A stretch of DNA of 64,000 nt from Zobellia nedashkovskayae (GTDB lineage: Bacteria; Bacteroidota; Bacteroidia; Flavobacteriales; Flavobacteriaceae), in contig NZ_JADDXR010000002.1 of NCBI RefSeq assembly GCF_015330125.1, positions 2,492,685 to 2,556,684 of the forward strand, read 5' to 3'. Numbering within the stretch: position 1 is the first letter of the stretch; every line of letters begins with the position of its first letter. A program made the translations under genes and the position numbers. Positions 31,064 to 61,592 of the stretch are shown here, in pieces. The notes under the pieces are model-generated. The model was not told the DNA's origin and did not search any database. It saw only the letters and a list, made by a program, of their open reading frames with translations.

Positions 31064-32221
31064 TTATTCTTGATTTATATACAAGAATCCTTGATGTTTT
31101 ACATCAATATCTTTCAAGTCAATTATGTAGAAATAAACTCCAGCGGGTAGTTTCTTTGAGGTAGCAACTACACTACTAACGTTGGCTGTACCCCCAAAAG
31201 TATTGTCGTAGTCAGTGGCTTCATAAACGGCGCGTCCCCATCTATTGTAAATAGTAAGTTGGTTATTAGGTGATAAAGAAACGGCATCTAAAACAAGAAA
31301 ATCAGCTTTTCCGTCTCCGTTTGGTGTCATTAGATAATTACCCAAATCAACAGTCTGTCTGCTAAGGCTTCCACCAAAAGTAATAATGGTATAGTCATCT
31401 GGTATAAAAACGTCTGATGTTATTTCACCTTCATTAAAATCTCCTTCCATAGCGGTATTACCTAAATCCTCCCAAATGCTGTGTTCCGTATGCCAACCTA
31501 CAACTCTTAAGTTTTCAACTTCATCCATAAAACTAGAAAGGCTACTATCCGTATCCCAACCTAAGGTAACTTTGGATGATACCTCTGTGTCTAAATCCCA
31601 AAATTCCTCATTACTTACAGATACTAAAATATCAGTTCTATTCTCTGTGCTAAATGTGGTATGAAAGGTAGATGGATGATTAGGGTCTTCGAAAAAGTAA
31701 GCCGACTTGGCATTTTCGTTAATTTGATTAGAAGATAGTTTTAAAGGCCTTAATTTATCAAAATGACCTATCGGAAAAATAAAATCTTGCTTATTTCTTA
31801 CAGCTGAATATCCATCTACTTTGGTGAAATTAATATCACCATTATAAAAGGCATTATCTATATATTCTATATTGGTGTCAATAAGGAACCTAGGGGTAAC
31901 CAAGTCTCCCGAAATAAAATTACTATTATTGGTAATACCAATACCGACCTCTAAAATCAGGTCATTATCCACAACTATTTCTAAGTCCTTAAAAACAGGT
32001 CTGAAAGCTCCGCTTATATAGGCAATATCTTCATTATAAAAACCAGCTAGACCCTTATTATCATCAAAGGAGCCATCATTAATTAAATTTTGGTAAAAAC
32101 CAATCTGCGCATCTTCATGCATTTTCATGTTTCCAAAATTATGAAATGAGTCTTGTGCCGTTAGGGTATTAGTGCATATACCTAAGACCAAGCTACCAAT
32201 TATTATTATGTGTTTTTTCAT
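31064..32221 (-). CDS. CHU_C-tailed secreted protein, cassette 1
   Basis: 385 residues with signal peptide (IIIIGSLVLGICTNTLTAQ). The N-terminal part (FGNMKMHEDAQIGFYQNLIND, GLAGFYNEDI) is paralogous to the protein encoded at 40671-41825 along the whole length. The last about 90 residues are a gliding-motility-associated C-terminal domain: MTPNGDGKADFL, YNRWGRAVYEATDYDNTF and LPAGVYFYIIDLKD. CHU_C tails direct export through T9SS and usually need a SprF-type partner. Third gene of the fibre cassette, 77 bases after the 386-residue gene. Confidence 0.88.
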   Translation of the reverse strand: MKKHIIIIGSLVLGICTNTLTAQDSFHNFGNMKMHEDAQIGFYQNLINDGSFDDNKGLAGFYNEDIAYISGAFRPVFKDLEIVVDNDLILEVGIGITNNSNFISGDLVTPRFLIDTNIEYIDNAFYNGDINFTKVDGYSAVRNKQDFIFPIGHFDKLRPLKLSSNQINENAKSAYFFEDPNHPSTFHTTFSTENRTDILVSVSNEEFWDLDTEVSSKVTLGWDTDSSLSSFMDEVENLRVVGWHTEHSIWEDLGNTAMEGDFNEGEITSDVFIPDDYTIITFGGSLSRQTVDLGNYLMTPNGDGKADFLVLDAVSLSPNNQLTIYNRWGRAVYEATDYDNTFGGTANVSSVVATSKKLPAGVYFYIIDLKDIDVKHQGFLYINQE

Positions 32222-32298
32222 GTTTAATATCTATTGCTAAACTACAAAGTGAATATACAAGTTGATAAAAATGAACGACTTAAACTTTTTTACCATCC

Positions 32299-33459
32299 TT
32301 AGTATGTCATTTGTATGTTTGTTATCCCCATTCCTACATGGTAAATAGAAGAATCAAAGTACAACGGATTCACTGCCTTTTTGGAGGAGGTATAAATAAC
32401 GTTTCCATTTCTTAAATAAGTAACCGTTCCTAAACAGTCTATATCTATACTTAACACATCCCCTATAGCATAACTTGAGACGTAACCTAAACTTCCGCCA
32501 TTCTCTCTAATTTGTATTTGGGAATTTGATACTAGGTACATTGCATAATTAAGATTCGTATAAGATGCACTTGATGCAGGTGTATAACTTAATCCAACCA
32601 TACCTAATAAGTTCGTTTGATTTGGCGTAAAATCCAACCTTCCGCCAATGGTTGGCTTAATTTCATGATTTAAACTATATCCTTGCGCATTCCAGCCCGC
32701 AGAGCCTGTTTTTAGTAGTTCGTTCCCATCATAGGTAATCAAACCACTTACCACCATATCCGTATTCAAAATGGTGTTAGAGGAAAGGGGAGTAATTGGT
32801 TGCAATACAAATCCACCGCTCAATGTACCTAAACCTGCGTTATTGGTAACGGAAATATCAAAATTTCCATAAGCTGATCCAGAAGTTATATTAGCCGTAA
32901 TTTGGGTAGAACTATTTATAACAATAGAATTTATGGTTTGCCCTGCAACGGCAACAGTAGAAGCACCATCGAAATAGGCACCTTGAATTATAAGATTTCT
33001 GGTTTCGTTAAATTGAAATTGAGAACAGTTACCTATTCCGGCATTAGAATTTGAAACAATAGGCGTGTTACCTGGTACAGTGGGACTAAAATTCACATCA
33101 GGGTCAATACCATTAGAAAAAGTAAAAGATCCATCAGGATTAGTGGTAAAAGTAGATTTAATTGAGGAAACAACATATGGGTCTGCGGTTGTTCCGGTTC
33201 CGCTTATACTAACATTATCATTAGCAACAATTTTTGTTTCATTCCCTTCAGGAGTAAGTTTTTGCCAAATAGTTCCGTTAAATTGATATAGTAGTTTATC
33301 ACTGCTATTGTAAATCAAAGAACCTTCAACCGGACTAACAATAGCATTAATCTCTGCTGTATTAGCAGTATGTATGTTCATCAGTTCATTGGCATTAGGA
33401 ACTTGCGCAAAAGCTACTTTCGTTACTAAAAGCAGAAATATAAATAATAGATTTTTCAT
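32299..33459 (-). CDS. Secreted protein sharing the fibre N-terminal module
   Basis: 386 residues with signal peptide (LLFIFLLLVTKVAFAQ). Residues about 20-70 include EGSLIYNSSDKLLYQFNGTIW, clearly related to NGALVFNTDQNCLFQYKGNIW in the 2253-residue neighbour and to RGALVYNTTADCVYYYDGTAW in the 1202-residue paralogue. A middle segment (IIQGAYFDGASTVAVAG ... GNFDISVTNNAG) looks like an IPT/TIG-type Ig fold. The last about 150 residues form a jelly-roll-like stretch (IQIRENGGSLGYVSSY). No CHU_C or other T9SS tail is visible. Function unknown. Starts 4 bases after the giant gene ends. Confidence 0.78.
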   Translation of the reverse strand: MKNLLFIFLLLVTKVAFAQVPNANELMNIHTANTAEINAIVSPVEGSLIYNSSDKLLYQFNGTIWQKLTPEGNETKIVANDNVSISGTGTTADPYVVSSIKSTFTTNPDGSFTFSNGIDPDVNFSPTVPGNTPIVSNSNAGIGNCSQFQFNETRNLIIQGAYFDGASTVAVAGQTINSIVINSSTQITANITSGSAYGNFDISVTNNAGLGTLSGGFVLQPITPLSSNTILNTDMVVSGLITYDGNELLKTGSAGWNAQGYSLNHEIKPTIGGRLDFTPNQTNLLGMVGLSYTPASSASYTNLNYAMYLVSNSQIQIRENGGSLGYVSSYAIGDVLSIDIDCLGTVTYLRNGNVIYTSSKKAVNPLYFDSSIYHVGMGITNIQMTY

Positions 33460-33463
33460 TTAT

Positions 33464-36400
33464 TTATAGGTCTAAAATGGTGAACATAAATTCAGAATCA
33501 AATCGTATGCGGTCACCAGCTCCATTATCATTGTCTCCAATAATAACTTCAAAAGTGGTAGTGGTTTGATTGAAATAAGATATACCTGGATCATCGTTTC
33601 CGTTTCCACCTCTACCAATCTGTGATAGTTGAATAATATAATCAGAATCTGATGTTGCGCCAGCTGGCAGTGTAACAATGTAATGCCCTAAACCTGCTTG
33701 TTTCGTAATTGTGATTCCGGAAGTACCTTTTACGACTGTACCTGTGCTAGAAATTTTGGCAAAAGCTTTAATAGGACTTTCGTAAAAGACACCTGCGTCC
33801 GTACCTGCGGTCACACTGTTTCCAGCATCAGTGCTAATCTTTGGGTCTGATGAAGGAGCGTCTATCCAATCTGTTCCTGTTGCAGTAGATGATAATACCT
33901 GGCCAGCTGTTCCAGCTTCGCCATCCTTGTCTTCAAAACTGCCATCTAGTCGCATATTATTAGCTACATGAAGACTTTCGTCTGGAGTAACCGTACCAAT
34001 ACCTACGTTTTGAGATGCATCTATTAGCATGGCATTTGTTCCGTTGGTAGAGAAGCCTAATTGATTAGCGGCTAACCTGTACATTCCCATATCCGAATCA
34101 CTATTAAAGCGATAAGAAGGAGCATTTGCAGTACCGTCTGCATTGGCAAAGGAAGTAGCTCTAACTTGGCCGCTAACTTGTAGTTTGTGAGTAGGGGTAT
34201 CGGTACCAATGCCTAATCTGTTGTTTACACTATCCCAAAATAGTTGATTGTTATCTTCTGTAGGCTCTCCCGTAGCGCCGGCAAAGAAGACTGAACCTGT
34301 TGTTCCCGTATGGGTGAACGTGTTGGAATCTATCCAAGAAACAGAACCTGTATTATCAGTTACTAAAGTTTGGTTATTGCTTCCCGCAGCTATTTTTAAA
34401 GGAGTTACAGCACCATTGGCAATAGTTAAAGTAACATCTTCAAAAGTTGAATTAGCGCCGTTGGTTACCACTAGATCAGTAGAGGTGATACCACCACTTG
34501 CTAAACCGTCTACATAATTTTTAGTAGCTGCATCTTGCGCGTTTGATGGGTCTAATAAATTGGTTAAAGGATGACTGGCCATAGACAATGTGCCTGCCAT
34601 GGCATCTCCGTTTACATTCAAATACCGAGCATCGTTTGTAGAAAGGTCGGTAGTTACTTCTTGCCACCCGGTCACATCATCATAAATAAAAGCAACCCCA
34701 TTTCTATCTGCAGTTAAGCCAGATTCCCCGGAAACGATATAAATATCCGAATCTACACCTGTTGCAGGGAGGTTGGCTTCAAGTCCTGTTGAGGTACTGG
34801 AAAGGATTACGGCAACATTACCGTTTGCAGCCGGCACAACACCATTTACACTTCTTACCACACTGGTAACATCATCTGTTCCTCCAGCTTCATTATTAAA
34901 ACGAAGTGTACTTCTGTTTCCGGTAACTTCTTCAAACGAAGTTATGGTTTCATTAATAGCAACGGTACTTGCATCAGGTTGCGTTATGGTTGCAATTTTA
35001 TTCCCCGTAACTAAATCTGAAATATTCAAGGCATCTACTTCTAAAGCTCCAGTAGTGGCGTTCTGAGATAATCCAGCACCGGCAACATCAACATTGATTT
35101 TGGCAGCGGTCACCGCATCGTTCGCAATACTTAAAACTCCGGTGTTAGATATGTTAGCGTCTCCGCTCATTGCTACTCCTTGAGCGATATTACTGTTGTC
35201 GCCAACAAAAATATTTCCGTTTGTGAGGCTATTTACCGTTCCAACTTGATTGTCAACATATGTTTTCACAGCCAATTCTGTTGGGAATTTGGTGTTTGAG
35301 GCATCTGCAAGAGTTACATCTGCAGATTTGTTATTGGCATCTTCTTTTAGATCGATATTATTTTGAAGTGTGGTTTCGGCTGTTGTAGCTCTTAACTGCT
35401 CTGCTAAAATAGCAGCATCGGCATCGGCTTCGTTCTGGTTAACATCATTCTGAACTGCGGTAATATCTGCTGATTCTTCTAAAGCGGAAAGGTTAGCGGT
35501 TACTGAAGTTCCACCTTCACTAATTGTTAATATACTTGATGTATTTATGGTTACTCCAGTAATATCGTCATCGGCAGTAGCCGTAATTTGTCCGTCTACA
35601 TAGGTCTTTACGGCAAGTTCTGTTGGGAACTTTGTATCGGTAACATCTGCAAGGGTAACGTCAGTCGATTTGTTTGCGGCATCTTCTTTTAATGCGATGG
35701 CTGCATCTGCGTCGGCTTCATTTTGGTCAACATCGTTTTGAACAGCAGTGATATCTGCAGATTCTTCCAAAGCTGAAAGATCTACGGTAACCGAAGTAGC
35801 ACCTTCGTCTATTTTTAATACACTGGCAGCGTCTATAGAAGCAGCTGTAATGTCATCATCTGCACTTAGTGTTATTTGCCCGTCTACATAGGTTTTTACG
35901 GCAAGTTCCGTCGGGAATTTGGTATTAGTAGCATCGGCAAGATTGGTGTCGGTAGACTTGTTAGCTGCATTTTCTTTTAAAGCTATGGCCGCGTCTGCAT
36001 CCGCTTCGTTTGTATCAATATCGTTTTGAACTGCTAGAATAGCTGCATCTGCATCCGCTTCGTTTGTATCAATATCGTTTTGAACTGCTAGAATAGCTGC
36101 ATCTGCATCTGCTTCGTTTGTATCAACATCGTTTTGAACGGCAGTGATATCCGCTGATTCTTCCAAAGCTGAAAGGTCTACGGTAACGGAAGTAGCACCT
36201 TCGTCAATTTTCAAAACACTGGCAGCATCTATAGTTGCTGCTGTAATATCATCATCGGCAGTGGCGGCAATTTGTCCGTCCACATAGGTCTTAACGGCAA
36301 GTTCTGTTGGGAACTTTGTATCGGTTGGGTCTGCAAGGGTAACGTCAGTTGATTTGTTTGCGGCATCTTCTTTTAGGGCGATGGCTGCGTCCGCATCGGC

Positions 36401-39400
36401 TTCGTTTGTGTCGACATCGCTTTGAACGGCAAGTATAGCTGCATCAGCATCTGCTTCGTTTGCATCGACATCATTTTGAACTGCTAGTATAGCTGCATCT
36501 GCATCGGCTTCGTTTGCATCGACATCGTTTTGAACGGCAGTGATATCCGCTGATTCTTCCAAAGCTGAAAGGTCTACGGTAACGGAAGTGGCACCTTCGT
36601 CTATTTTTAATAAGCTGGCAGCATCTATTGAAGCTGCAGTAATATCATCATCTGCGGTAGCGGCAATTTGTCCGTCCACATAGGTCTTAACGGCAAGTTC
36701 TGTTGGGAACTTTGTATCGGTTGGGTCGGCAAGGTTAACGTCAGTCGATTTGTTTGCGGCATCTTCTTTTAGGGCGATGGCTGCGTCCGCATCGGCTTCG
36801 TTTGTGTCGACATCGTTTTGAACGGCAAGTATAGCCGCATCTGCATCTGCTTCGTTTGCATCGACATCGTTTTGGACAGCAAGTATGGCCGCATCGGCAT
36901 CTGCTTCGTTTGCATCGACATCATTTTGAACTGCTAGTATAGCTGCATCTGCATCGGCTTCGTTTGCATCAACGTCGTTTTGGACCGCAGTAATGTCCGC
37001 GGATTCTTCCAAATCTGAAAGGTCGACTGTTACGGAGGTAGCACCTTCGTCAATTTTCAGAACACTGGCAGCATCTATAGTCGCTGCTGTAATATCATCA
37101 TCTGCAGTGGCGGCAATTTGTCCGTCCACATAGGTCTTAACGGCAAGTTCTGTTGGGAACTTGGTATCGGTTGGGTCGGCAAGGGTAACGTCAGTGGATT
37201 TATTGGCGGCATCTTCTTTTAAAGCGATGGCCGCATCGGCATCCGCTTCGTTTGTATCGACATCGTTTTGAACCGCAAGTATGGCCGCATCTGCATCCGC
37301 TTCATTTGTGTCCACATCATTTTGGACAGCAGTGATATCCGCTGATTCTTCCAAAGCTGAAAGGTCTACGGTAACGGAAGTGGCACCTTCGTCTATTTTT
37401 AATAAGCTGGCAGCATCTATTGAAGCTGCAGTAATATCATCATCTGCGGTAGCGGCAATTTGTCCGTCCACATAGGTCTTGACGGCAAGTTCCGTCGGGA
37501 ACTTGGTATCTGTAGGGTCTGCAAGAGTAACATCTTTGGATTTATTGGCGGCATCTTCTTTTAACGCAATGGCTGCGTCCGCATCGGCTTCGTTTGTGTC
37601 GACATCGTTTTGAACGGCAAGTATTGCTGCATCTGCATCCGCTTCATTTGTGTCCACATCGTTTTGAACAGCAGTGATATCCGCTGATTCTTCCAAAGCT
37701 GAAAGGTCTACGGTAACCGAAGTAGCACCTTCGTCTATTTTTAACACGCTGGCAGCATCTATTGAAGCTGCGGTAATATCATCATCCGCCGTGGCAGCAA
37801 TTTGTCCGTCCACATAGGTCTTGACGGCAAGTTCCGTCGGGAACTTGGTATCTGTAGGGTCTGCAAGAGTAACGTCTGTGGATTTATTGGCGGCATCTTC
37901 TTTTAACGCAATGGCTGCGTCCGCATCGGCTTCGTTTGTGTCGACATCGTTTTGAACGGCAAGTATTGCTGCATCCGCATCGGCTTCGTTTGTGTCGACA
38001 TCGTTTTGAACGGCAAGTATGGCCGCGTCTGCATCGGCTTCATTTGCATCGACATCATTTTGGACAGCAGTAATGTCCGCCGATTCTTCCAAAGCTGAAA
38101 GGTCAACGGTAACCGAAGTAGCACCTTCGTCTATTTTTAAAACACTTGCGGCATCTATTGAAGCTGCAGTAATATCATCATCTGCCGTGGCAGCAATTTG
38201 TCCGTCCACATAAGTCTTAACAGCAAGTTCCGTTGGGAACTTGGTATCGGTAGCGTCGGCAAGAGTAATGTCGGTTGACTTGTTTGCGGCATCTTCTTTT
38301 AATGCGATAGCAGCATCCGCATCTGCCTCATTTTGATTTACATCGTTTTGGATAGCAGTTTCAGCGGCAGTAGCTCTAGTTGTTTCGGCTAAAATTGCAG
38401 CATCGGCGTCTGCTTCGTTCTGGTCAACATCATTCTGGATAGCAGTTTCGGCAGCAGTTGCTCTGTTTGTTTCTGCGAGTATTGCAGCGTCCGCATCGGC
38501 TTCGTTTGTGTCGACATCGTTTTGAACGGCAAGTATTGCTGCATCCGCATCCGCTTCATTTGTGTCCACATCATTTTGGACAGCAGTGATATCCGCTGAT
38601 TCTTCCAAAGCTGAAAGGTCTACGGTAACGGAAGTGGCACCTTCGTCTATTTTTAATAAGCTGGCAGCATCTATTGAAGCTGCAGTAATATCATCATCTG
38701 CGGTAGCGGCAATTTGTCCGTCCACATAAGTCTTGACGGCAAGTTCCGTTGGGAACTTGGTATCTGTAGGGTCGGCAAGGGTAACGTCAGTCGATTTGTT
38801 TGCGGCATCTTCTTTTAGGGCGATGGCCGCATCAGCATCTGCTTCGTTTGTGTCGACATCGTTTTGAACGGCAAGTATGGCGGCATCCGCATCGGCTTCG
38901 TTTGTGTCGACATCGTTTTGAACGGCAAGTATAGCTGCATCCGCATCCGCTTCGTTTGCATCGACATCGTTTTGAATGGCAAGTATAGCTGCATCCGCAT
39001 CTGCTTCGTTTGCATCGACATCGTTTTGGACAGCAGTAATGTCCGCGGATTCTTCCAAATCTGAAAGGTCAACGGTTACCGAGGTAGCACCTTCGTCTAT
39101 TTTTAATAAGCTGGCCGCATCTATTGAAGCTGCAGTAATATCATCATCTGCGGTAGCGGCAATTTGTCCGTCCACATAGGTCTTGACGGCAAGTTCCGTC
39201 GGGAACTTGGTATCGGTTGGGTCAGCAAGAGTAACGTCAGTGGATTTATTGGCGGCATCTTCTTTTAAAGCGATGGCTGCGTCCGCATCGGCTTCGTTTG
39301 TGTCGACATCGTTTTGAACGGCAGTAATATCTGCAGATTCTTCCAAAGCAGAAAGGTCAACGGTAACGGAAGTTGCTCCTTCGTCAATTTTCAAAACGCT

Positions 39401-40225
39401 GGCAACATCTATAGTCGCTGCTGTAATATCGTCATCTGCGGTAGCGGCAATTTGTCCGTCCACATAGGTCTTGACGGCAAGTTCCGTTGGGAACTTGGTA
39501 TCGGTTGGGTCTGCAAGAGTAACGTCTGTGGATTTATTGGCGACATCTTCTTTTAGAGCGATGGCCGCGTCCGCATCGGCCTCATTTATATCAACATCGT
39601 TTTGAACTGCAAGTATGGCCGCATCTGCATCCGCCTCATTTGCATCAACATCGTCTTGAACTGCAGTGATATCCGCGGATTCTTCCAAAGCAGAAAGGTC
39701 TGCAGTAGTGTTATTTCCGTTTTCAATATCAATATTTAAAAGAGAGGTTGCAGCGTCTAAATTAGCATTTTCCAGATTTTGGTTGTCCGTACCAACAAAG
39801 TTTATTGCATTAGTACCATTACTAAAAGTATAGCTACCATCTAGATTGTCTACTAAGTTTGCTTTTGAAATTACAGCAGAAATACCCGCTTCATTGGTAT
39901 AGGTTACGGTACCATCATTATTATCCAATAATGCGGTGATGGTTTCCCCAGCCGCAATGTTAACACATAGACTGGACCAAATATTACCTTTGTATTGAAA
40001 GAGGCAATTCTGATCGGTGTTAAAGACCAATGCGCCATTTAAGGGGATAATACTGTTCATTTGGGCATTGGTAACGCGCGTTACCACAAATACTCTAGTG
40101 GAACTTTCTAATTCCATTAATGAGGCCGCATCAATCTGATTTATGTTATCTCCAATTTTTACCTGCGAAAACGCTAAGTGGCTTAAAAAGAGAAGTACGA
40201 CGAGGGGAACGTGTTTCATCTTCAT
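33464..40225 (-). CDS. Giant repetitive tail-fibre-like secreted protein
   Basis: 2253 residues with signal peptide (VPLVVLLFLSHLAFSQ). Order: fibre N-terminal module (about 20-75), a spacer, a repeat array (about 174-1662), then a non-repetitive region with the phage-fibre signatures DAATKNYVD, IGTDTPTHKLQVSG and VGIGTVTPDESLHV, and a final beta domain (about 2130-2253). Each repeat unit is 96 residues with one 18-residue AVQNDVDTNEADADAAIL module, plus 18 for each additional module. TKFPTELAVKTYVD occurs 12 times; ETNRATAAE-type inserts occur once in the array. These motifs are typical of trimeric tail-fibre and adhesin stalks, so a long surface fibre is inferred. No sorting tail or S74 chaperone is seen. 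Confidence 0.85.
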   Translation of the reverse strand: MKMKHVPLVVLLFLSHLAFSQVKIGDNINQIDAASLMELESSTRVFVVTRVTNAQMNSIIPLNGALVFNTDQNCLFQYKGNIWSSLCVNIAAGETITALLDNNDGTVTYTNEAGISAVISKANLVDNLDGSYTFSNGTNAINFVGTDNQNLENANLDAATSLLNIDIENGNNTTADLSALEESADITAVQDDVDANEADADAAILAVQNDVDINEADADAAIALKEDVANKSTDVTLADPTDTKFPTELAVKTYVDGQIAATADDDITAATIDVASVLKIDEGATSVTVDLSALEESADITAVQNDVDTNEADADAAIALKEDAANKSTDVTLADPTDTKFPTELAVKTYVDGQIAATADDDITAASIDAASLLKIDEGATSVTVDLSDLEESADITAVQNDVDANEADADAAILAIQNDVDANEADADAAILAVQNDVDTNEADADAAILAVQNDVDTNEADADAAIALKEDAANKSTDVTLADPTDTKFPTELAVKTYVDGQIAATADDDITAASIDAASLLKIDEGATSVTVDLSALEESADITAVQNDVDTNEADADAAILAVQNDVDTNEADADAAILAETNRATAAETAIQNDVDQNEADADAAILAETTRATAAETAIQNDVNQNEADADAAIALKEDAANKSTDITLADATDTKFPTELAVKTYVDGQIAATADDDITAASIDAASVLKIDEGATSVTVDLSALEESADITAVQNDVDANEADADAAILAVQNDVDTNEADADAAILAVQNDVDTNEADADAAIALKEDAANKSTDVTLADPTDTKFPTELAVKTYVDGQIAATADDDITAASIDAASVLKIDEGATSVTVDLSALEESADITAVQNDVDTNEADADAAILAVQNDVDTNEADADAAIALKEDAANKSKDVTLADPTDTKFPTELAVKTYVDGQIAATADDDITAASIDAASLLKIDEGATSVTVDLSALEESADITAVQNDVDTNEADADAAILAVQNDVDTNEADADAAIALKEDAANKSTDVTLADPTDTKFPTELAVKTYVDGQIAATADDDITAATIDAASVLKIDEGATSVTVDLSDLEESADITAVQNDVDANEADADAAILAVQNDVDANEADADAAILAVQNDVDANEADADAAILAVQNDVDTNEADADAAIALKEDAANKSTDVNLADPTDTKFPTELAVKTYVDGQIAATADDDITAASIDAASLLKIDEGATSVTVDLSALEESADITAVQNDVDANEADADAAILAVQNDVDANEADADAAILAVQSDVDTNEADADAAIALKEDAANKSTDVTLADPTDTKFPTELAVKTYVDGQIAATADDDITAATIDAASVLKIDEGATSVTVDLSALEESADITAVQNDVDTNEADADAAILAVQNDIDTNEADADAAILAVQNDIDTNEADADAAIALKENAANKSTDTNLADATNTKFPTELAVKTYVDGQITLSADDDITAASIDAASVLKIDEGATSVTVDLSALEESADITAVQNDVDQNEADADAAIALKEDAANKSTDVTLADVTDTKFPTELAVKTYVDGQITATADDDITGVTINTSSILTISEGGTSVTANLSALEESADITAVQNDVNQNEADADAAILAEQLRATTAETTLQNNIDLKEDANNKSADVTLADASNTKFPTELAVKTYVDNQVGTVNSLTNGNIFVGDNSNIAQGVAMSGDANISNTGVLSIANDAVTAAKINVDVAGAGLSQNATTGALEVDALNISDLVTGNKIATITQPDASTVAINETITSFEEVTGNRSTLRFNNEAGGTDDVTSVVRSVNGVVPAANGNVAVILSSTSTGLEANLPATGVDSDIYIVSGESGLTADRNGVAFIYDDVTGWQEVTTDLSTNDARYLNVNGDAMAGTLSMASHPLTNLLDPSNAQDAATKNYVDGLASGGITSTDLVVTNGANSTFEDVTLTIANGAVTPLKIAAGSNNQTLVTDNTGSVSWIDSNTFTHTGTTGSVFFAGATGEPTEDNNQLFWDSVNNRLGIGTDTPTHKLQVSGQVRATSFANADGTANAPSYRFNSDSDMGMYRLAANQLGFSTNGTNAMLIDASQNVGIGTVTPDESLHVANNMRLDGSFEDKDGEAGTAGQVLSSTATGTDWIDAPSSDPKISTDAGNSVTAGTDAGVFYESPIKAFAKISSTGTVVKGTSGITITKQAGLGHYIVTLPAGATSDSDYIIQLSQIGRGGNGNDDPGISYFNQTTTTFEVIIGDNDNGAGDRIRFDSEFMFTILDL
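35240..39705 (-). repeat. Near-identical nested tandem repeats within the giant gene
   Basis: Twelve copies of the KFPTELAVKTYVD block and at least 25 copies of a 54-base module. Units are 288 bases plus multiples of 54, with 1 to 4 modules each. Long stretches are base-for-base identical between copies, for instance around 36605-36690, 37395-37480 and 38645-38730. GC content is visibly higher than in the neighbouring genes. Confidence 0.95.
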
Positions 40226-40634
40226 TTTTTGAATTTATAACCACTTATTATGAGAATAAATGGTAGGTCTGTTATAGTTGACTTTTGAAAAATGTATCCA
40301 AAAGTTTGGTTTCAAATAATTTTGAAGAAGAATTTAGATTCGCTTATGGCTAATCCTTGTAGGGAGGCAAGGAGTATGGAATCAACTTTTTAATTTAAAA
40401 AAATAACAGAATATTCTTACAAATTTGATTGTGCGAATAGCGTGTTATTTTTTGATAGTAGATTATCCTTTATCAAAGCTTCTTCAATCTTTTTTATGTA
40501 AAATTAAAGTCTGATCGACGAACTGCACACTATTTGTTGTGAAGTGAAGGGAAAGTGTAGTGTCTTAGGAAGAAAAAGTTGTAAGAAAAAAATGTAAGTA
40601 GGAGGGTATTGTGTAAAAGATCGATGAACGGTAT
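40226..40634. other. Control region of fibre cassette 1
   Basis: 409 AT-rich bases without an ORF, upstream of the giant gene. On the minus strand TTG (40315-40313) and TACATTTT (40296-40289) resemble a promoter with 16-base spacing. An inverted repeat TTTGATA/TATCAAA lies at 40451-40477 and might be an operator. Confidence 0.35.
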
Positions 40635-40665
40635 AAAAAAAAGAGGTCCATGGACCTCTTTTTTT
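40635..40665. terminator. Terminator of fibre cassette 2
   Basis: A perfect palindrome with arms GAGGTCCA and TGGACCTC (40643-40658), eight A before and seven T after, 5 bases past the 40671 stop on the minus strand. Confidence 0.92.
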
Positions 40666-40670
40666 AGAAA

Positions 40671-41825
40671 TTAATCGTTCGCCAAATATAAAAATCCTTG
40701 GAATTCAAGGTCCAAATCGTCTAGTGTAACAATATAGAAATACACCCCAGAAGGAAGGCCTTGATCTCTTGTTACGACAAAATTATTTTGTGTTGAAAGT
40801 CCGTTGAACTCATTTGTATAATTCGACTTTTCAAAAACTTTGAGTCCCTCACGGTTATAAATCTGTACAAAATTGTTGGGTGATAACGTCAATTCCGGAA
40901 TCTCAAGAAAATCATTAATACCATCGCCGTTAGGAGAAACAAAATAATTTTCTAGCTCTAAAAAATCTCTAGGTTCACCCATGGCGGCAAACGTAAGTAC
41001 TTCATAATCGTCCGGAATAAAAGAACCGGAAGCTACAATGCCTTCGTTTAAATCTCCTGCAGGTGCCGAACCACTAAGGCTTTCCCAACTATTGGTTGCT
41101 TTGCTATAACCTACAATGGCAATTTCGCTTACATCATCGGTTAAAATGCCAATGTTACTACGCTCGTTCCAAGAGAGTTGTATGGAAGAAGGTGTGGAAC
41201 CTTCTAAATGCCAAAATTCTACTATACTGATATCGCCAATTTCTGCGGCTTTATTATTTGTGTTAAATGAACCGGATAGCGTAGTAGGGCTGTTAGCGTC
41301 TTCTAAAAAGTAGGCACATCTTGCCAAGGTGTTAACACCTTCTGAACTTAATATTAAAGGACGCAATTGTTCCGTATCTCCCACAGGGAAAATAAAATTT
41401 TGTTGATCGTTTACACTGGCATAACCATCTACTTTGCTAATATCACTCTGGCCATTTGGAAAAGCATCTGCCAAGAAGTTAAGGGTAATAGCAGGTTGTG
41501 CGCGATCGGTAATGACATCTCCGGTAATAAAGTTAGCGTTGTTTAATACGTTTAGGGAGGTTTGCACATTAGTAGCAGTACCAGTTACAAATTCTACATC
41601 ATAAAGGGTAGCGGGTAAGCTGCCACTTATGGTGCGAAAGTCATCTCCGTAAAAACCGACCAAGCCCAGATTTTCATCAAAACTACCATCATTAATTAGA
41701 TCGGTATGAAAACCCAGGACACCACCTTCATGAATACGGAGGTTACCGGCATTGTACAAAGCTTCTTGTGCCTGTACGCCCGATGCCAAAATTAGAGCCG
41801 CTATGTATAAGATGTGTTTTGTCAT
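40671..41825 (-). CDS. CHU_C-tailed secreted protein, cassette 2
   Basis: 384 residues from the ATG at 41825; an upstream TTG would displace the signal peptide (ILYIAALILASGVQAQ). Full-length paralogue of the 31064-32221 product: shared HEGGVLGFHTDLINDGSFDE, GLVGFYGDDFRTISG, NNANFITGDV and the CHU_C tail VSPNGDGINDFLEI, IYNREGLKVFEKSNYTNEF, LPSGVYFYIVTLDDLD. It follows the 1202-residue fibre gene by 5 bases, so the two are translationally linked. Presumably exported by T9SS; a role as surface anchor for the fibre is inference from the repeated pairing. Confidence 0.9.
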   Translation of the reverse strand: MTKHILYIAALILASGVQAQEALYNAGNLRIHEGGVLGFHTDLINDGSFDENLGLVGFYGDDFRTISGSLPATLYDVEFVTGTATNVQTSLNVLNNANFITGDVITDRAQPAITLNFLADAFPNGQSDISKVDGYASVNDQQNFIFPVGDTEQLRPLILSSEGVNTLARCAYFLEDANSPTTLSGSFNTNNKAAEIGDISIVEFWHLEGSTPSSIQLSWNERSNIGILTDDVSEIAIVGYSKATNSWESLSGSAPAGDLNEGIVASGSFIPDDYEVLTFAAMGEPRDFLELENYFVSPNGDGINDFLEIPELTLSPNNFVQIYNREGLKVFEKSNYTNEFNGLSTQNNFVVTRDQGLPSGVYFYIVTLDDLDLEFQGFLYLAND

Positions 41826-41830
41826 TTTGC

Positions 41831-44800
41831 TTAGTTGATTTTTTGCCAATCAGTCCCGTCACTTTGTAATTGGGTAACACCTTCATTAAGACTAACACTT
41901 GGATTGCCTATATCATTTGTAAATGAATCAATCCCTATTGGTCCTCCTGTAATATTCTTTAATATATACACTTTACCCGTATTAGCTGTAGGAGTAGGTA
42001 AGTTAACAGAGGTTGCTGAAATAATTATTACAGTATGGTCATCGTCTGCAATGGTAATTGCTCCTCCTGCGTTTTCTCGTCTTATATTCGTTGAAAATGC
42101 TCCGGTAACAGTTACATTAGTTAAACCAGTGTCTTCTTCAATATGTAAAGCCTCTATACCTCCAACACTCAAACCGATTTCATCGGCCGCAGGTCTGAAC
42201 ATGCCAGTATCACTGTCTGTTCCTGTACTAAAACTATAAGCTGGAGATCCAACAGTGCCGCCAGCTGAATTAATACCTTCTGCTCGAATTTCTCCAGCAA
42301 CATGTAATTTATTAGAGGGGGTAGTTGTTCCTATTCCAATCAGTCCTGTTCCATCAAAAAATAAATTAGAACCATTTAAATCATAAGTTCTATTTTGCCC
42401 AGATGTCTGAATTAAATCCGCTGTAGAAAGATTAGTCCCACTTACTGCTGCCCAAACTACATCTGTACCACTTGTGGTTAATACTTGGCCATCTGTTCCT
42501 TCTGAAATTTTATCTGGAGTTACATTATTGTTTGCAATACTGGTTGTTACTACTGCTCCTGCTGCAATCTCATCAGTATTTACTGCTCCCGTAGCTATTT
42601 TATCTGCTGTAATAGCATCGGTTGCAATTACAGTCGCTGTAGTTGGTCCAGCAACATCACCAGCTAAATCATTTACAATAAATTCATTAGTTGCAGACAA
42701 AGCAAGTCCTGCTCCGGCTGTATAAGGAGTAGCAGCTGCTCCACCGTCATCTGTTCCAATAGTCCAAATTAAATTATCTTGATCCCATTTTAAAACTTGT
42801 CCTGTTGTGGTTGCTCCCATTGGGCTAAGGTCTTCAAGAGCGATAGTTGCATTTGCAATTTTTGCAGATGTGACGGCTTCGTCAATAATGTTTTCTGCAA
42901 TGACAGCGTCAACGGCTAATTCATCTGTAGTAATAACGTCAGTGGCAATATCAAGTTCAGAACCTGTAGTTCCATCACCTGTGAATGAAGTTGTAACGGC
43001 TACAGCGCTTATACCTGTTGATGAGTCATCTGTGCCTATTGTCCAAACTAAATTGTCTTGATCCCATTTTAATATTTCTCCATTAACAGTAGCACCCATT
43101 GGGCTAAGGTCTTCAAGAGCGATAGTTGCATTTGCAATTTTAGCAGAGGTAACTGCATCGTCCACTATACTAATAGCACTCGCAGCGTCCGTACCATCAC
43201 CTGTTATAGTAGTACCATCAGTAACTACTGTACTTGTTCCTCCACCAGTTCCCCATTCTACACCAGCTCCGGTAGATGTAAGTACTTGGCCAGGAGTACC
43301 AAGACCAGTTGCGGTTCCATCAACATCTATACCGCCATATAATTGTATATCGCCATTGTTTTTAACTGTGAAGGCTTTGTCCGAAGCAACTTGTGGTGCT
43401 TCCTTTGCTTCATTATTTTGATTAAGCATAAAATGAAAATCCCCTACTCCAAAATCCCCTGTTCGCTCCAAAACTAGCGCTCCTTTTCCATCGGCAAATC
43501 TATCCGCGGAAAACAAAATCCCAACGCCTGATCCTAAGGATTCCAATCCGTTGTGTACTTCTAACGGATAGGATATATCTCCATCAACATTATCGATAAT
43601 GTGAACTTTTACATTGTTGTTAATAATCTTACCATCCAAACCAATACCTAAAGCTCCGTAAGCTGTTCCAGAGACTATACGAGCATCATAATCCCAAATT
43701 AAACTTGGATTTCCACTGGTAGGGTGAAACGCTTGAGCTGGGTCACCCTCGTCATCAGCAAAAAATATTGACTTCGACTGGCCAGAATGGCTAGCCACTG
43801 GAGCAATTTCCCAATTACCATTAGTTTCACTCCATCTCATTACCTGCCCATCTGCATTTGCTCCCATATCACTAAAATCTCCTAATTCAATAGTCTCATC
43901 TAAAATATTAGCGGATTCAATTACGTCATCCTCAATAGTAAGAACTCCGGCATTATCCATAGTAGCATCACCACTAATTTCTAATTGCTGTGAGATATTA
44001 CCTGTACCTCCAATTAAAATACTTCCGTCAGTTAATCCTCCTCCAGCGGCCACAGTTGCATCAACATATGCTTTGGTAGCAGCATCTTGGTCCAAGGTGG
44101 GTTCTGCAAGATCGGCTATCTGTAAGTTTCCTGCGCTAGTACCTGTTGCTAAAACTTGGCTCAAATTTTGAGCCGTTCCCGCACTAGCTAAAGCAGTATT
44201 AATACCGGCTAAATGAGCTTCAACATCTTGTGAGGCTGCTGTGTAATTTGTTGCTGCAAGGGTTACTGGTACTTCAGCTGCTGTTTGGTTTGTTCCAGTA
44301 CCGCCTCCGTCTAAATCATCTAAGTTAATAACTCCGTTAAAGCCGCCACCTGTTCCTGTAAAAGTAAGGTTGTTATCTGCTGCAGTATATACTACATCTG
44401 AAATAACACCATCAGCGGTTCCACCGCCACCAGCTAAAGAACTTAAGTTTACACTACTTCCAGCAGTAGTAGCGCTATTGGAAAGGCTAAGAATATTTGT
44501 TGCTAGGTCAAAATCAAGATCCGTTAATTCATTTGTAACGCTTCCATCAACTTCGTTAGAATTTATTACATAAGGAGTGGCAGTCGTGCCATTTCCTTGA
44601 ATGGTTACGTTATCCCCCTCAGTTATTTTGGTATCGGATCCATTTGCCGTAGGTAAATCAACAGAACCAGCAACACCGCTTATGGAAAGTTGAGATCCGG
44701 TCAGGTTTAAAGTTTGTAATTCGTTGGTTGGACTGTTATCATTATTCGCAGCAATGGCTGTCGCATTGGCTGCAATGCTGGTTTCAAGTGGTGTGGCATC

Positions 44801-45439
44801 AAAAAAGGCTCCGCTATCGGTTCCAACCTCAATAGCATTGTCAGCATCGCCACTTACTATATCGGTACCTGTAATAAAACCAATATCGTTATTAAAGAAG
44901 CTTAAAGGAAGGCTGTCGCGATCAATAGCATAAGGGCCAACTGCATTTTCAGCAATTCTGGCTTTATCTACTGCATTGGGAGCTAATTTTCCCCTTCCAA
45001 TAGATCCATCTTGTATATCTACTCCGTTAATACCTCCGTTCAATATTTGATCACTAGAAATACTATTAGGAGCTATTTCTATATTGTTACCTCCTGCGGT
45101 AGGGGTGATTACAATAGTACTTTCGCTATTTACAATAGGCGTAGCTGTGAGAGCACCGCCATCAACACCATCGCACATACTAACCCAAGCCGTACCATCA
45201 TAATAATAAACACAATCTGCCGTAGTGTTATAAACTAAGGCACCGCGGTTGGGTACTATGGTGGTCATTTGTAGAGAATCTACCCTTGTAATGACCAATA
45301 CCTTATCTGAACTTTCTAGTTCTAGAATAGAGCTGGGGTCAATAACTTGGGGGTTATCACCTATTTTTACTTGAGCTTGAGCAAAACTGATGAGGAAAAA
45401 ACCGATAAAAAATAACGGTATCGAGATGCGCTTTTGCAT
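41831..45439 (-). CDS. Tail-fibre-like secreted protein, cassette 2
   Basis: 1202 residues with signal peptide (RISIPLFFIGFFLISFAQAQ). The N-terminal VKIGDNPQVIDPSSILELESS ... RGALVYNTTADCVYYYDG aligns with the giant protein. The middle is low-complexity beta-fibre sequence with ATKAYVDATV and recurring VTSAKIANATIALEDLSPMG blocks. The C-terminal third contains GLIGIGTTTPSNKLHVAGEIRA, SFSTGTDSDTGMFRPAADEIGLSV and a final head (about 1110-1202) whose segments resemble those in phage tail fibres. No CHU_C tail or S74 peptidase. Smaller and much less repetitive than the giant paralogue. First gene of cassette 2. Confidence 0.85.
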   Translation of the reverse strand: MQKRISIPLFFIGFFLISFAQAQVKIGDNPQVIDPSSILELESSDKVLVITRVDSLQMTTIVPNRGALVYNTTADCVYYYDGTAWVSMCDGVDGGALTATPIVNSESTIVITPTAGGNNIEIAPNSISSDQILNGGINGVDIQDGSIGRGKLAPNAVDKARIAENAVGPYAIDRDSLPLSFFNNDIGFITGTDIVSGDADNAIEVGTDSGAFFDATPLETSIAANATAIAANNDNSPTNELQTLNLTGSQLSISGVAGSVDLPTANGSDTKITEGDNVTIQGNGTTATPYVINSNEVDGSVTNELTDLDFDLATNILSLSNSATTAGSSVNLSSLAGGGGTADGVISDVVYTAADNNLTFTGTGGGFNGVINLDDLDGGGTGTNQTAAEVPVTLAATNYTAASQDVEAHLAGINTALASAGTAQNLSQVLATGTSAGNLQIADLAEPTLDQDAATKAYVDATVAAGGGLTDGSILIGGTGNISQQLEISGDATMDNAGVLTIEDDVIESANILDETIELGDFSDMGANADGQVMRWSETNGNWEIAPVASHSGQSKSIFFADDEGDPAQAFHPTSGNPSLIWDYDARIVSGTAYGALGIGLDGKIINNNVKVHIIDNVDGDISYPLEVHNGLESLGSGVGILFSADRFADGKGALVLERTGDFGVGDFHFMLNQNNEAKEAPQVASDKAFTVKNNGDIQLYGGIDVDGTATGLGTPGQVLTSTGAGVEWGTGGGTSTVVTDGTTITGDGTDAASAISIVDDAVTSAKIANATIALEDLSPMGATVNGEILKWDQDNLVWTIGTDDSSTGISAVAVTTSFTGDGTTGSELDIATDVITTDELAVDAVIAENIIDEAVTSAKIANATIALEDLSPMGATTTGQVLKWDQDNLIWTIGTDDGGAAATPYTAGAGLALSATNEFIVNDLAGDVAGPTTATVIATDAITADKIATGAVNTDEIAAGAVVTTSIANNNVTPDKISEGTDGQVLTTSGTDVVWAAVSGTNLSTADLIQTSGQNRTYDLNGSNLFFDGTGLIGIGTTTPSNKLHVAGEIRAEGINSAGGTVGSPAYSFSTGTDSDTGMFRPAADEIGLSVGGIEALHIEEDTGLTNVTVTGAFSTNIRRENAGGAITIADDDHTVIIISATSVNLPTPTANTGKVYILKNITGGPIGIDSFTNDIGNPSVSLNEGVTQLQSDGTDWQKIN
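42752..43160 (-). repeat. Duplicated block within the 1202-residue fibre gene
   Basis: 42752-42880 and 43031-43160 are direct copies (period about 279 bases) encoding the IANATIALEDLSPMGAT...WDQDNL segment. A core of over 40 bases around 42815-42860 and 43095-43140 is identical. A diverged third copy encodes ETIELGDFSDMGANADGQ. Confidence 0.85.
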
Positions 45440-45768: not shown

Positions 45769-46518
45769 ATGAAGATTATCCCTACTCTAGTATGTATACT
45801 TTTTACTTTCTTATCTGTAAACGCTCAAGATGATGACCGCTCCTTATTACGTGGTACGGTATTGTACAGAAATATAAGTGTACCTAATGAAAACGTTATA
45901 AACATTACCACGGAGACCGCAGTAATTTCTAATGAAGAAGGGCAGTTTGCTATAATGGCTAAAGCCGGTGATGAATTGGCCTTTACCGCAGTAAACTATA
46001 ATCTGGAAGTACTTAAAGTTACCGAAGAGATTATTAAAAATGGCCGTTTGGTAGTTGAAGTGAACGAAAAGGTTACTGAATTAGATGAAGTGGTCGTAAG
46101 CCCAGAGAACGAAGAGAAGTTCCTTAGGTTGCAGAATGAGGAGTTTAAAAAGGTTGAGTATGATATAGATCGCTCTACCGAGGTAGAAAATATTGCGTTA
46201 AGTGAGTCAGAAAGAGGAATGAAAGACGGACTTAATTTTGTAAATATTTTTAAGGCGTTGGCTAAAGCCGGAAAAGGGGATACTGCTGATAAGAAACCAC
46301 GAATGAAAATGAGTCAAGTGCTAAGACAGGTATATGATGATGAGTTTTTTGTAGCCGATCTTAAGTTACCTCAAGCCTCTATAGATGATTTTCTAATATA
46401 TTTAGATACCCACGAACCTGAATACGCATTGCTTCTAAAGAAAAACGAATTTGAGCTGATCGATTTTTTGGTTAACAAAAGCAAGGCGTACCGAGAACTA
46501 ATGAATGAAGAGAAATAA
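45769..46518 (+). CDS. Exported protein with carboxypeptidase-regulatory-like domain (trio member 1)
   Basis: 249 residues with signal peptide (IIPTLVCILFTFLSVNAQ). Residues about 25-115 form the beta-sandwich found at the N-terminus of SusC-type receptors: LRGTVLYRNISVPNENVIN, NEEGQFAIMAKAGDELAFTAVNY and the closing TELDEVVV. There is no plug or barrel after it; instead a charged helical part ends in DLKLPQASIDDFLIYLD. The same plan recurs in the next two genes. Function unknown. Overlaps the next gene by 14 bases, so translation is coupled. Confidence 0.82.
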   Translation: MKIIPTLVCILFTFLSVNAQDDDRSLLRGTVLYRNISVPNENVINITTETAVISNEEGQFAIMAKAGDELAFTAVNYNLEVLKVTEEIIKNGRLVVEVNEKVTELDEVVVSPENEEKFLRLQNEEFKKVEYDIDRSTEVENIALSESERGMKDGLNFVNIFKALAKAGKGDTADKKPRMKMSQVLRQVYDDEFFVADLKLPQASIDDFLIYLDTHEPEYALLLKKNEFELIDFLVNKSKAYRELMNEEK

Positions 46519-47281
46519 ACTTCTTTTTATATTTTTTTTCTTTCTCTTGACGGGACTATCCGCTCAAGATTTCTTTTCTGATGAACTTCAGGGTCGCGTC
46601 TTTAGTAAAGATGGTGATGTGGCAGCAACTCACGTTTTAAATACAACTACTAAAAAAGCCACAATTACGAACATTGATGGTTTTTTTACTATTGTCGCTA
46701 AGCTTAATGATACCTTGGTGTTTTCTGCCGTGCAATATAAACGCAAGGAAATTGTAATTACGCCTAGTCTTCTTGAAAGCAAACTTCTAATGATACCACT
46801 AGAAGAATCCTTGACAGAATTAGATGAGGTGGTGGTTATGCCGTATAGTCTATCCGGGAATATAGCAAGTGACCTTAGAACTTTGAAAACGGAACCAGTT
46901 ATTACGGCTTCAACAATGGGGCTGCCCAATGCGTATGTAGTTCCTATGACTAAGGCAGAAAGAGAATTTAAAGCGGCAACGGCAAACCCTTACATGAGTT
47001 TTGATCCGCTCATCAATATGATTACGGGCCGAAAAAAAATGCTTAAGGCACGGGTAAAGCGGAATAACACATATGCCAGAACGCAGCGTGTCCGTGAATT
47101 TTATGCGGACTCACTTTATACTACCGAATTAAAAATTCCCCAAGATAAGATTGAAGAATTTATGTACTTCTGTGAAGTAGATGTCGCTTTTCAACAAATT
47201 GTAGATACCCATGATAGAATAAAAATATGGGGTTATATGAAGAAGAAGAGTATTGTGTACCTTAAGAATTATGAAGAGTAG
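46505..47281 (+). CDS. Exported protein with carboxypeptidase-regulatory-like domain (trio member 2)
   Basis: 258 residues with a phenylalanine-rich signal peptide ending LTGLSAQ. The domain (LQGRVFSKDGDVAATHVLNTT ... GFFTIVAKLNDTLVFSAVQY ... LTELDEVVVMPYSLSG) is closely similar to member 3 and less so to member 1. The C-terminal segment ELKIPQDKIEEFMYFCEVD corresponds to DLKLPQASIDDFLIYLD in member 1. Overlaps member 1 by 14 bases. It lacks any receptor barrel; possibly a periplasmic or outer-membrane accessory protein. Confidence 0.82.
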   Translation: MKRNKLLFIFFFFLLTGLSAQDFFSDELQGRVFSKDGDVAATHVLNTTTKKATITNIDGFFTIVAKLNDTLVFSAVQYKRKEIVITPSLLESKLLMIPLEESLTELDEVVVMPYSLSGNIASDLRTLKTEPVITASTMGLPNAYVVPMTKAEREFKAATANPYMSFDPLINMITGRKKMLKARVKRNNTYARTQRVREFYADSLYTTELKIPQDKIEEFMYFCEVDVAFQQIVDTHDRIKIWGYMKKKSIVYLKNYEE

Positions 47282-57882: not shown

Positions 57883-58788
57883 TTAGAAGTAACGAGGAGA
57901 TTTCATTGCCTTTAATCCTCTATTAAACAATTCGTAGATAAGAATAACTTCATGTGTTCCTCCAGAATAAGGCCTAAAGGTTGAGGTAGGTAAATCATAA
58001 GCATACCCAATTCTAAACGAGTCCGAAATGGCATAATCCATCAATACACCAAAGCTGTCAGAATCATTAAAACGATATGAAGCTCCTATCCAGAATTTTT
58101 CGTAGAAAAGGAAATTAGCTGTTACATCATAAGAGGCAGGTGCGCCGTTGGTATATTTTAATATGGCCGTTGGTTTGAATTTTGTAGTTTGACCAATATC
58201 AAAAACATAACCACCAATAGCATAATAGCTGTTGCGTTCCAAGGCAACAAATTCGCCGTTGTTTAAATCTGTATTTAATATTCTAGGAGCTGATGCACCT
58301 AGGTACCATTTGTTTGAGCTTACATAAATACCGGCACCCATATTAGGATTCCATTTAGAGAAGCCATCAAAAAAGAAAGGGTCACTTTCGTCTGGTGTTC
58401 CTAATTTATAATTAGTAACACCACCTTTTAGCCCAAGCGCCATATTTACATCTCCGCTTAATGGAACAGTATATGAAACATCTGCGTAGATATAATTTGT
58501 TTTCTCAAAACCTAATTGGTCATTTATATAAGATAGGCCAACCCCAATATTACTAAAGCGTATTGGTGTATGTACAGATAGCGTACTTGTTGTAGGGTTC
58601 CCTTCTATACCGGCCCATTGGTTCCTGTGCAAAGCGGTAGCATTCAATGTTTGCCTGCTACCTGCATATGCCGGATTTATAGACATGGTGTTATAAACGT
58701 ATTGGGTAAACTGTGGAAGCTGTTGTGCATTTGAAAAAAAGGCACAGCATACCGCCAAAGTTGCTAGGTAATTTCTAAGTGCTGTCAT
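57883..58788 (-). CDS. PorP/SprF family T9SS outer-membrane protein
   Basis: 301 residues with signal peptide (YLATLAVCCAFFSNAQ). PQFTQYVYNTMSINPAYAGSR at the mature N-terminus is the hallmark of PorP/SprF, followed by HRNQWAGIEGNPTT and repeated glycine/aromatic barrel strands ending with GTHEVILIYEL. SprF-like proteins help export and attach a specific CHU_C-tailed substrate encoded next door, here the 810-residue protein 10 bases upstream. Not the core PorP of the machine, since it pairs with a substrate. Confidence 0.92.
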   Translation of the reverse strand: MTALRNYLATLAVCCAFFSNAQQLPQFTQYVYNTMSINPAYAGSRQTLNATALHRNQWAGIEGNPTTSTLSVHTPIRFSNIGVGLSYINDQLGFEKTNYIYADVSYTVPLSGDVNMALGLKGGVTNYKLGTPDESDPFFFDGFSKWNPNMGAGIYVSSNKWYLGASAPRILNTDLNNGEFVALERNSYYAIGGYVFDIGQTTKFKPTAILKYTNGAPASYDVTANFLFYEKFWIGASYRFNDSDSFGVLMDYAISDSFRIGYAYDLPTSTFRPYSGGTHEVILIYELFNRGLKAMKSPRYF

Positions 58789-61231: not shown

Positions 61232-61592
61232 AATTATAGGTTCGTCTAACAATCCTCATTGTTTGACATATAATTAGAAGCTACAATACGGTCTTTACCT
61301 GTATAGTTTTGTAATGGTGTAATTAAGGTCAAGTTCAATTTGTAGCAACTAGGTTATTTGGGATAAAAAAGTGCTGTAATTTTATAGCATAATTCTTGTT
61401 TGATATATGTAAAGTTCACTTAAAGTACTGTTAACACACATACTATCCGATGAACGGTTCGTATTTTCGCCAGTAGCATTTATCTATAGATGAGTTGTGC
61501 AATTATATCGATAAGCATATTTTGATCGTTATGGATAGACCGTTAAAAAAAACGATAAAAGGTAATTGTATCGATATTAGATATGCACTGTT
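61232..61592. other. Divergent region upstream of clpP
   Basis: 361 AT-rich bases without an ORF between divergent genes. No clear operator; the clpP promoter lies at its right end. Confidence 0.4.

Follow-up and report, generated by a model that had tools for sequence, protein, structure and literature searches.

The window analysed here is a 64-kb stretch of the 4.94-Mb genome of Zobellia nedashkovskayae (labelled G000 below). It carries two gene cassettes in which genes for tail-fibre-like proteins precede a gene for a small protein ending in a CHU_C domain, a type B signal of the type IX secretion system (T9SS). A preliminary description had recognized two paralogous cassettes at this locus, and the open reading frame (ORF) list with its translations bears this out: all five ORFs are present at the positions below, and both the CHU_C proteins (here called partners or adaptors) and the fibre N-termini are approximately 40% identical between cassettes.

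33464-40225, minus strand: cassette 1 fibre, 2253 aa, with signal peptide, N-terminal module (N-module), repeat stalk and phage-like tip
39863-40225, minus strand: cassette 1 signal peptide and fibre N-module (alignment A2; 201 bits in its own genome)
33467-33877, minus strand: cassette 1 fibre tip, last 137 aa (AlphaFold2 model; fold match to phage fibre tips)
32299-33459, minus strand: cassette 1 second fibre-type protein, 386 aa (ORF; N-module; PHROG match)
32344-32724, minus strand: head domain of the 386-aa protein, residues 246-372 (Cellulophaga phage match)
31064-32221, minus strand: cassette 1 CHU_C adaptor, 385 aa (CHU_C 86 bits; TIGR04131 36.8 bits)
31076-31339, minus strand: cassette 1 CHU_C type B T9SS signal (PF13585 over residues 295-382)
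41831-45439, minus strand: cassette 2 fibre, 1202 aa (ORF; PHROG tail-fibre matches)
45077-45439, minus strand: cassette 2 signal peptide and fibre N-module (alignment A2; 199 bits)
41834-42118, minus strand: cassette 2 exchanged fibre tip, about the last 95 aa (comparison with orthologues)
40671-41825, minus strand: cassette 2 CHU_C adaptor, 384 aa, ATG start (CHU_C 85.7 bits; AlphaFold2 model)
40683-40955, minus strand: cassette 2 CHU_C type B T9SS signal

Four bases follow the 2253-aa fibre gene of cassette 1, and 77 bases precede its CHU_C gene. The listed ORF of the cassette 2 partner has 392 aa, starts at an upstream TTG and overlaps the fibre gene; with the ATG at 41825 as start, the protein has 384 aa and the gap to the fibre gene is 5 bases, so that the spacing of 4-5 bases previously noted after each fibre gene is found in both cassettes. 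The set extends to three in this genome. Approximately 2.1 Mb away (G000:C2:~420200-423970), a third cassette of four genes encodes three chains (219, 226 and 353 aa) and then a 379-aa adaptor. In a whole-genome search the partner family had three full-length members, and strong fibre N-modules numbered four. All three cassette partners have an upstream N-module, versus none of the 23 other CHU_C genes in the genome (Fisher p = 4e-4; compared by hand), and the best-matching named relatives of the partners are Zobellia proteins. In the same-genus genome G001, a relative of the third cassette (L205:6234-9322) has three fibre-type genes and no adaptor.

Each adaptor consists of an N-terminal domain (N-domain) of approximately 265 residues followed by the T9SS signal. 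CHU_C (PF13585) is matched in both window partners (86 and 85.7 bits; cut-off 27), and the type B model TIGR04131 barely reaches its cut-off of 35 (36.8 and 35.1 bits). All three cassette partners begin with a hydrophobic stretch ending in AQ, a predicted Sec signal read from the sequence, and their C-terminal domains (CTDs) share 39-53% identity. The cassette 2 adaptor was modelled by AlphaFold2 with a mean predicted local distance difference test (pLDDT) score of 92.1. No Pfam family was found above cut-off in the fibres, the 386-aa protein or the N-terminal parts of the partners.

The same 120 genomes of the window's family were searched with two profiles, A1 for the partner N-domain and A2 for the fibre N-module; matches counted as strong above 200 bits for the partner and above 100 bits for the N-module. 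Strong partners numbered 35 copies in 23 genomes and strong N-modules 39 copies in 23 genomes; 21 genomes have both, two only the partner, two only the fibre and 95 neither (Fisher p = 4e-19). A strong N-module lies upstream on the same strand of 24 of the 35 partners, with 1.6 to 11.7 kb between the matches. The remaining 11 partners are located 0.7 to 3.5 kb from the upstream contig end, with a fibre-type ORF (assigned by the N-module model for some and by eye for others) directly upstream or running off the contig. A fibre-type gene thus precedes 35 of 35 close partners, which supports the pairing of fibre and CHU_C protein as a conserved unit. In the reverse direction, 24 of the 39 strong N-modules have a downstream partner, 12 run off the contig end (five seen directly, seven inferred from ORF length and position) and three have no partner. 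At a looser threshold of 1e-6, the N-module is found in 69 of the 120 genomes and any partner in 33. The N-module superfamily is therefore wider than this system, and an N-module does not require this adaptor. The pairing is one-directional: every close partner came with a fibre gene, and some fibres have no partner.

The same arrangement is found in 79 named loci holding 94 partners, nearly all of them titled Flavobacteriaceae or a genus that we take to belong to that family. Of these partners, 56 come immediately after an N-module gene (median gap 4 bp; 46 of 56 within 12 bp) and 13 after an ORF truncated at the contig end, while for 22 an N-module gene lies no more than 6 kb upstream; for the other three, with no visible N-module gene, the contig begins 0 to 6 kb upstream. 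Neither the 120 genomes nor the named loci therefore present the two proteins as separate in most genomes, the outcome that would have counted against a pairing. Distances among partners and among N-modules are correlated (r = 0.764, 62 pairs; the highest value in 5000 shuffles was 0.202), and for 12 loci with two complete cassettes the true pairing ranked first among 4096 within-locus partner swaps. These results show that partner and fibre are inherited as matched units; contact between them does not follow from that alone. At least one of three chromosomal flanks, recognized by motif and which we take to be an M15-type peptidase, an M1-type peptidase and a phosphoglycerate mutase, is present in 54 of the 79 loci. 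In many relatives the cassettes therefore have a fixed place in the chromosome and do not look prophage-like.

In all four fibre N-termini of the genome, the N-module forms approximately 100 aa directly after the signal peptide (alignment A2). Among 109 complete N-module ORFs, 104 have a signal-like N-terminus by a heuristic, and only one matches a CHU_C-type signal in a motif check; no type A signal was found among the fibre-type proteins scanned with NCBIfam, and elsewhere this signal was sought only by the motif check. In the cassette 1 fibre an 18-aa unit occurs 28 times and the KFPTELAVKTYVD motif 12 times, and the gene contains 54-bp and 288-450-bp tandem repeats. This fibre matches a PHROG tail fibre (2e-22) with its best stretch, 37 residues, in the stalk, and the model of its tip (mean pLDDT 84.8) returned phage tailspike and tail-fibre tips in a fold search. 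The 386-aa protein matches a PHROG virion structural protein (1.3e-12), and its head domain is 33% identical (2e-8) to Cellulophaga phage structural proteins. Since it also carries an N-module (54 bits with a widened model, L025), it is another fibre-type chain. A two- or three-part system had been proposed; the conserved pair stands, and the supposed third kind of component is instead a fibre-type chain with a phage-like head. In the cassette 2 fibre, which has several PHROG tail-fibre matches, residues 1-300 are conserved among orthologues and the rest is divergent. Its tip matches fibres of Euzebyella and Pseudozobellia and differs from the tips of three Zobellia orthologues; on this comparison, fibre tips are exchangeable.

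Variant arrangements of the fibre genes were seen elsewhere. Runs of several fibre-type genes stand ahead of one adaptor in the Tenacibaculum loci L116 and L123, and one such gene in L116 has a PA14 domain. At the second-cassette position in L071 (11354-12067), a fibre N-module and a shortened CHU_C signal without the PNGDG motif are combined in a single protein of 237 aa; this fusion is probably a decayed deletion product.

More distant relatives of the adaptor are widespread. The family sample includes 16 listed weak partners (A1 profile), and seven wider stretches (L134-L140) have fibre-type genes upstream of a weak partner; the N-module model identified them in four, and in the other three they are contig-cut and were judged by eye. 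The N-domain profile A5 has matches in 168 of 345 genomes of the class Bacteroidia, with up to seven candidates scored per genome. A stand-alone set (proteins up to approximately 520 aa) comprised 17 loci of the 20 such entries among the matches listed. Nine of the 17, two of them from the window's family, have an upstream N-module gene at 40 bits or more. The T9SS signals of ten stand-alone partners were type A above cut-off in five, type A below cut-off in one, type B in three and neither in one; several distant stand-alone pairs outside the order use the type A signal. In these cases the N-domain and the fibre gene stay together while the signal class switches. Although both window partners end in a CHU_C tail, the constant element of the partner is thus the N-domain and not that tail.

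The N-domain is also found in long proteins (20 loci with 23 proteins, mostly from the top of the matches listed), where it ends 60-260 residues before the C-terminus. Nine of these were tested for T9SS signals: type A scored above cut-off in five and below it in one, and the other three have none. No N-module was found in the long proteins or in the next upstream gene at any of the 20 loci, one of which shows no upstream sequence.

Taken with the gene order, its conservation, the matched inheritance, the domain make-up and the phage-like tips, these observations lead us to regard the cassettes as probably encoding a split surface adhesin, in which a T9SS-exported adaptor presents a separate trimeric fibre. 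In long proteins the N-domain precedes the C-terminal end; in the stand-alone form the exposed part would be supplied by another chain. A split adhesin is the simplest reading. The Sec system would take all chains to the periplasm, as their signal-like N-termini suggest, and the fibre chains, of which several types may be encoded together, would trimerise as in their phage relatives. The adaptor would leave via the T9SS and, judging from literature on such signals, a PorP/SprF-type shuttle would keep it at the surface where its signal is type B; the adaptors of distant relatives would take the type A route instead. The fibre N-module may dock on the adaptor N-domain, with the tip facing outward and binding algal or cell-surface glycans. 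The fibre might exit through SprA together with the adaptor, or it might take a different route. A bolder and rather doubtful form of this proposal is that the T9SS exports cargo without a signal of its own, a trimeric phage-derived fibre bound to a small signal-bearing adaptor, and that the adaptor is a class-wide plug-in in which the A or B signal, with or without a linked PorP, is swapped and the fibre dock is kept.

Several points weigh against a split adhesin. Contact between fibre and adaptor is something we infer, as are docking, the trimer, surface location and glycan binding, and the route of the fibre across the outer membrane is left without explanation. Tandem duplication of linked genes alone would also produce matched trees. 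A partner is missing beside three strong fibre copies whose downstream sequence is intact: the second fibre in G059 (L202), the copy in G001 (L205) and the fourth N-module protein of G000, a solitary 412-aa protein (G000:C2:2079013-2079366; L023:6135-7373) with no CHU_C neighbour. No partner was seen in 12 loci with generic or weaker N-module proteins, of which L190 and L201 show little or no downstream sequence. The other eight of the 17 stand-alone loci are less favourable: four adaptor-like proteins have no upstream fibre-type gene (one of these loci has a downstream one, by eye), and in four more an upstream gene is recognized at 8 bits only (two) or by eye only (two).

The context of shuttle genes also weighs on this side. 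Type B signals are expected to be served by a PorP/SprF shuttle, according to the available parts of two papers (PMC9143113, PMC12618676), and an adjacent PorP/SprF gene was found in none of 23 strong-partner loci (approximately 1.5 kb of flank each; one query protein) and at none of the three cassettes in G000. On the supporting side, weak family partners had PorP/SprF directly downstream in all eight examined of the 16 listed, and in several of these stretches a PorE-like gene of approximately 650 aa was seen by eye after PorP. Of the 16 PorP genes in G000, 12 directly follow a CHU_C gene and four are unpaired (by hand); a shared shuttle is therefore possible for the cassette adaptors. The absence of PorP as a mark of these adaptors was rejected as a strong contrast: a PorP gene stands next to 12 of the 23 other CHU_C genes in G000 (by hand), so zero of three is weak. 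In the 79 named loci, the sole PorP-like ORF detected with one query protein (L059:11158-12093, minus strand) is convergent with a neighbouring strong adaptor.

The partnerless fibres and the breadth of the N-module superfamily suggest that fibres may not need an adaptor, and they would fit two independent adhesins encoded in one operon, co-expressed for the same purpose (such as algal attachment) without forming a complex, with the fibre having its own surface route. We consider this unlikely, as no close adaptor (0 of 35) lacks a fibre-type gene and the link survives a change of signal class in several cases, where a loose functional tie should have been lost in more cases. The adaptor could also be an assembly factor, exported by the T9SS to aid fibre folding, trimerisation or outer-membrane crossing and taking no lasting part in the appendage. 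A single small adaptor after one or several different fibre-type chains fits such a helper, which would also address the otherwise unexplained fibre route; the presence of the N-domain inside long proteins, five of nine tested having a T9SS signal, suggests a lasting structural role instead and makes a helper improbable. Despite the resemblance of stalk, tip and head to phage proteins, it is very improbable that the fibres serve a phage-derived particle from a remnant or domesticated phage or tailocin locus, given the signal-like N-termini of 104 of the 109 N-module ORFs, the chromosomal flanks, the T9SS signal on the partner, and the fact that no phage structural, tail or baseplate genes were recognized by eye near the cassettes or in the part of the related loci inspected.

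A split adhesin has several partial parallels among known systems, the closest being mosaic adhesive trimers for the fibre and type B substrates anchored by PorP for the partner. The cassette fibres are laid out like the mosaic adhesive trimer (MAT) fibres of Bdellovibrio bacteriovorus, as described in the available sections of the source (PMC10769870): both have a stalk and varied tips, and in each the signal peptide leads into a conserved domain, which in the cassettes is the N-module. The modelled cassette 1 tip has a phage-fibre fold, as MAT tips do. The likeness is one of layout, with N-terminal domains compared by description, so that the cassette fibres are not classed as MAT members; furthermore, those sections mention no T9SS adaptor, whereas the cassette fibres are paired with a dedicated T9SS-signal protein. 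Substrates with type B CTDs that use PorP/SprF-like anchors and PorE resemble the adaptor in their CTD, going by the accessible text (PMC9143113, PMC12618676), but the close adaptors have no adjacent PorP and their exposed part would be a separate chain. The orphan type B substrates of Flavobacterium johnsoniae are likewise unlinked to a PorP/SprF gene, share the shuttle Fjoh_1677 and have more than 44% CTD identity among themselves; they are likened to the adaptors by signal type and gene context, and the portion of the paper available mentions no fibre partner (PMC12618676). SprB-type gliding adhesins are also T9SS-exported surface adhesins with a type B signal, but SprB is one chain with its own signal, whereas the cassettes split signal and fibre onto different chains (PMC12618676).

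What would be new is the combination, a T9SS-signal adaptor whose partner is a separate fibre; judged by its signal, the adaptor would itself be a T9SS substrate. No earlier description of a fibre-adaptor pairing was found in the literature searched, which excluded preprints and most subscription papers, in line with the earlier remark that no system with this pairing is known to have been described. The available parts of a T9SS review and a translocon structure paper contain nothing on it. Mfa5 of P. gingivalis is reportedly a T9SS-linked fimbrial component, and is not mentioned in those parts of the review. On the whole, the preliminary interpretation is partly supported.

If correct, the split adhesin would give marine and other Bacteroidota a surface appendage in two parts, linking phage-tail-fibre-like adhesins with the T9SS. 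It would account for T9SS substrates that consist of little beyond one domain and a signal, suggest what proteins whose sole annotation is gliding-motility C-terminal domain protein might do, and raise the question of whether the T9SS can move a signal-less partner. Exchangeable tips suggest that attachment can be adjusted, to macroalgae for example. On fresh algae, Z. galactanivorans induces components of the T9SS, genes of the SprF family and TIGR04131 cargo (PMC9296495), which may or may not include these cassettes.

Two further pairs of genes lie in the window. At 45769-47281 on the plus strand, two genes are divergent from cassette 2 and are also found upstream of cassettes in several related loci; the first has a carboxypeptidase-regulatory-like match below cut-off. 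At 57883-58788 and 58799-61252 on the minus strand there is a conventional pair, a gene for an 817-aa CHU_C protein followed by a PorP/SprF gene.
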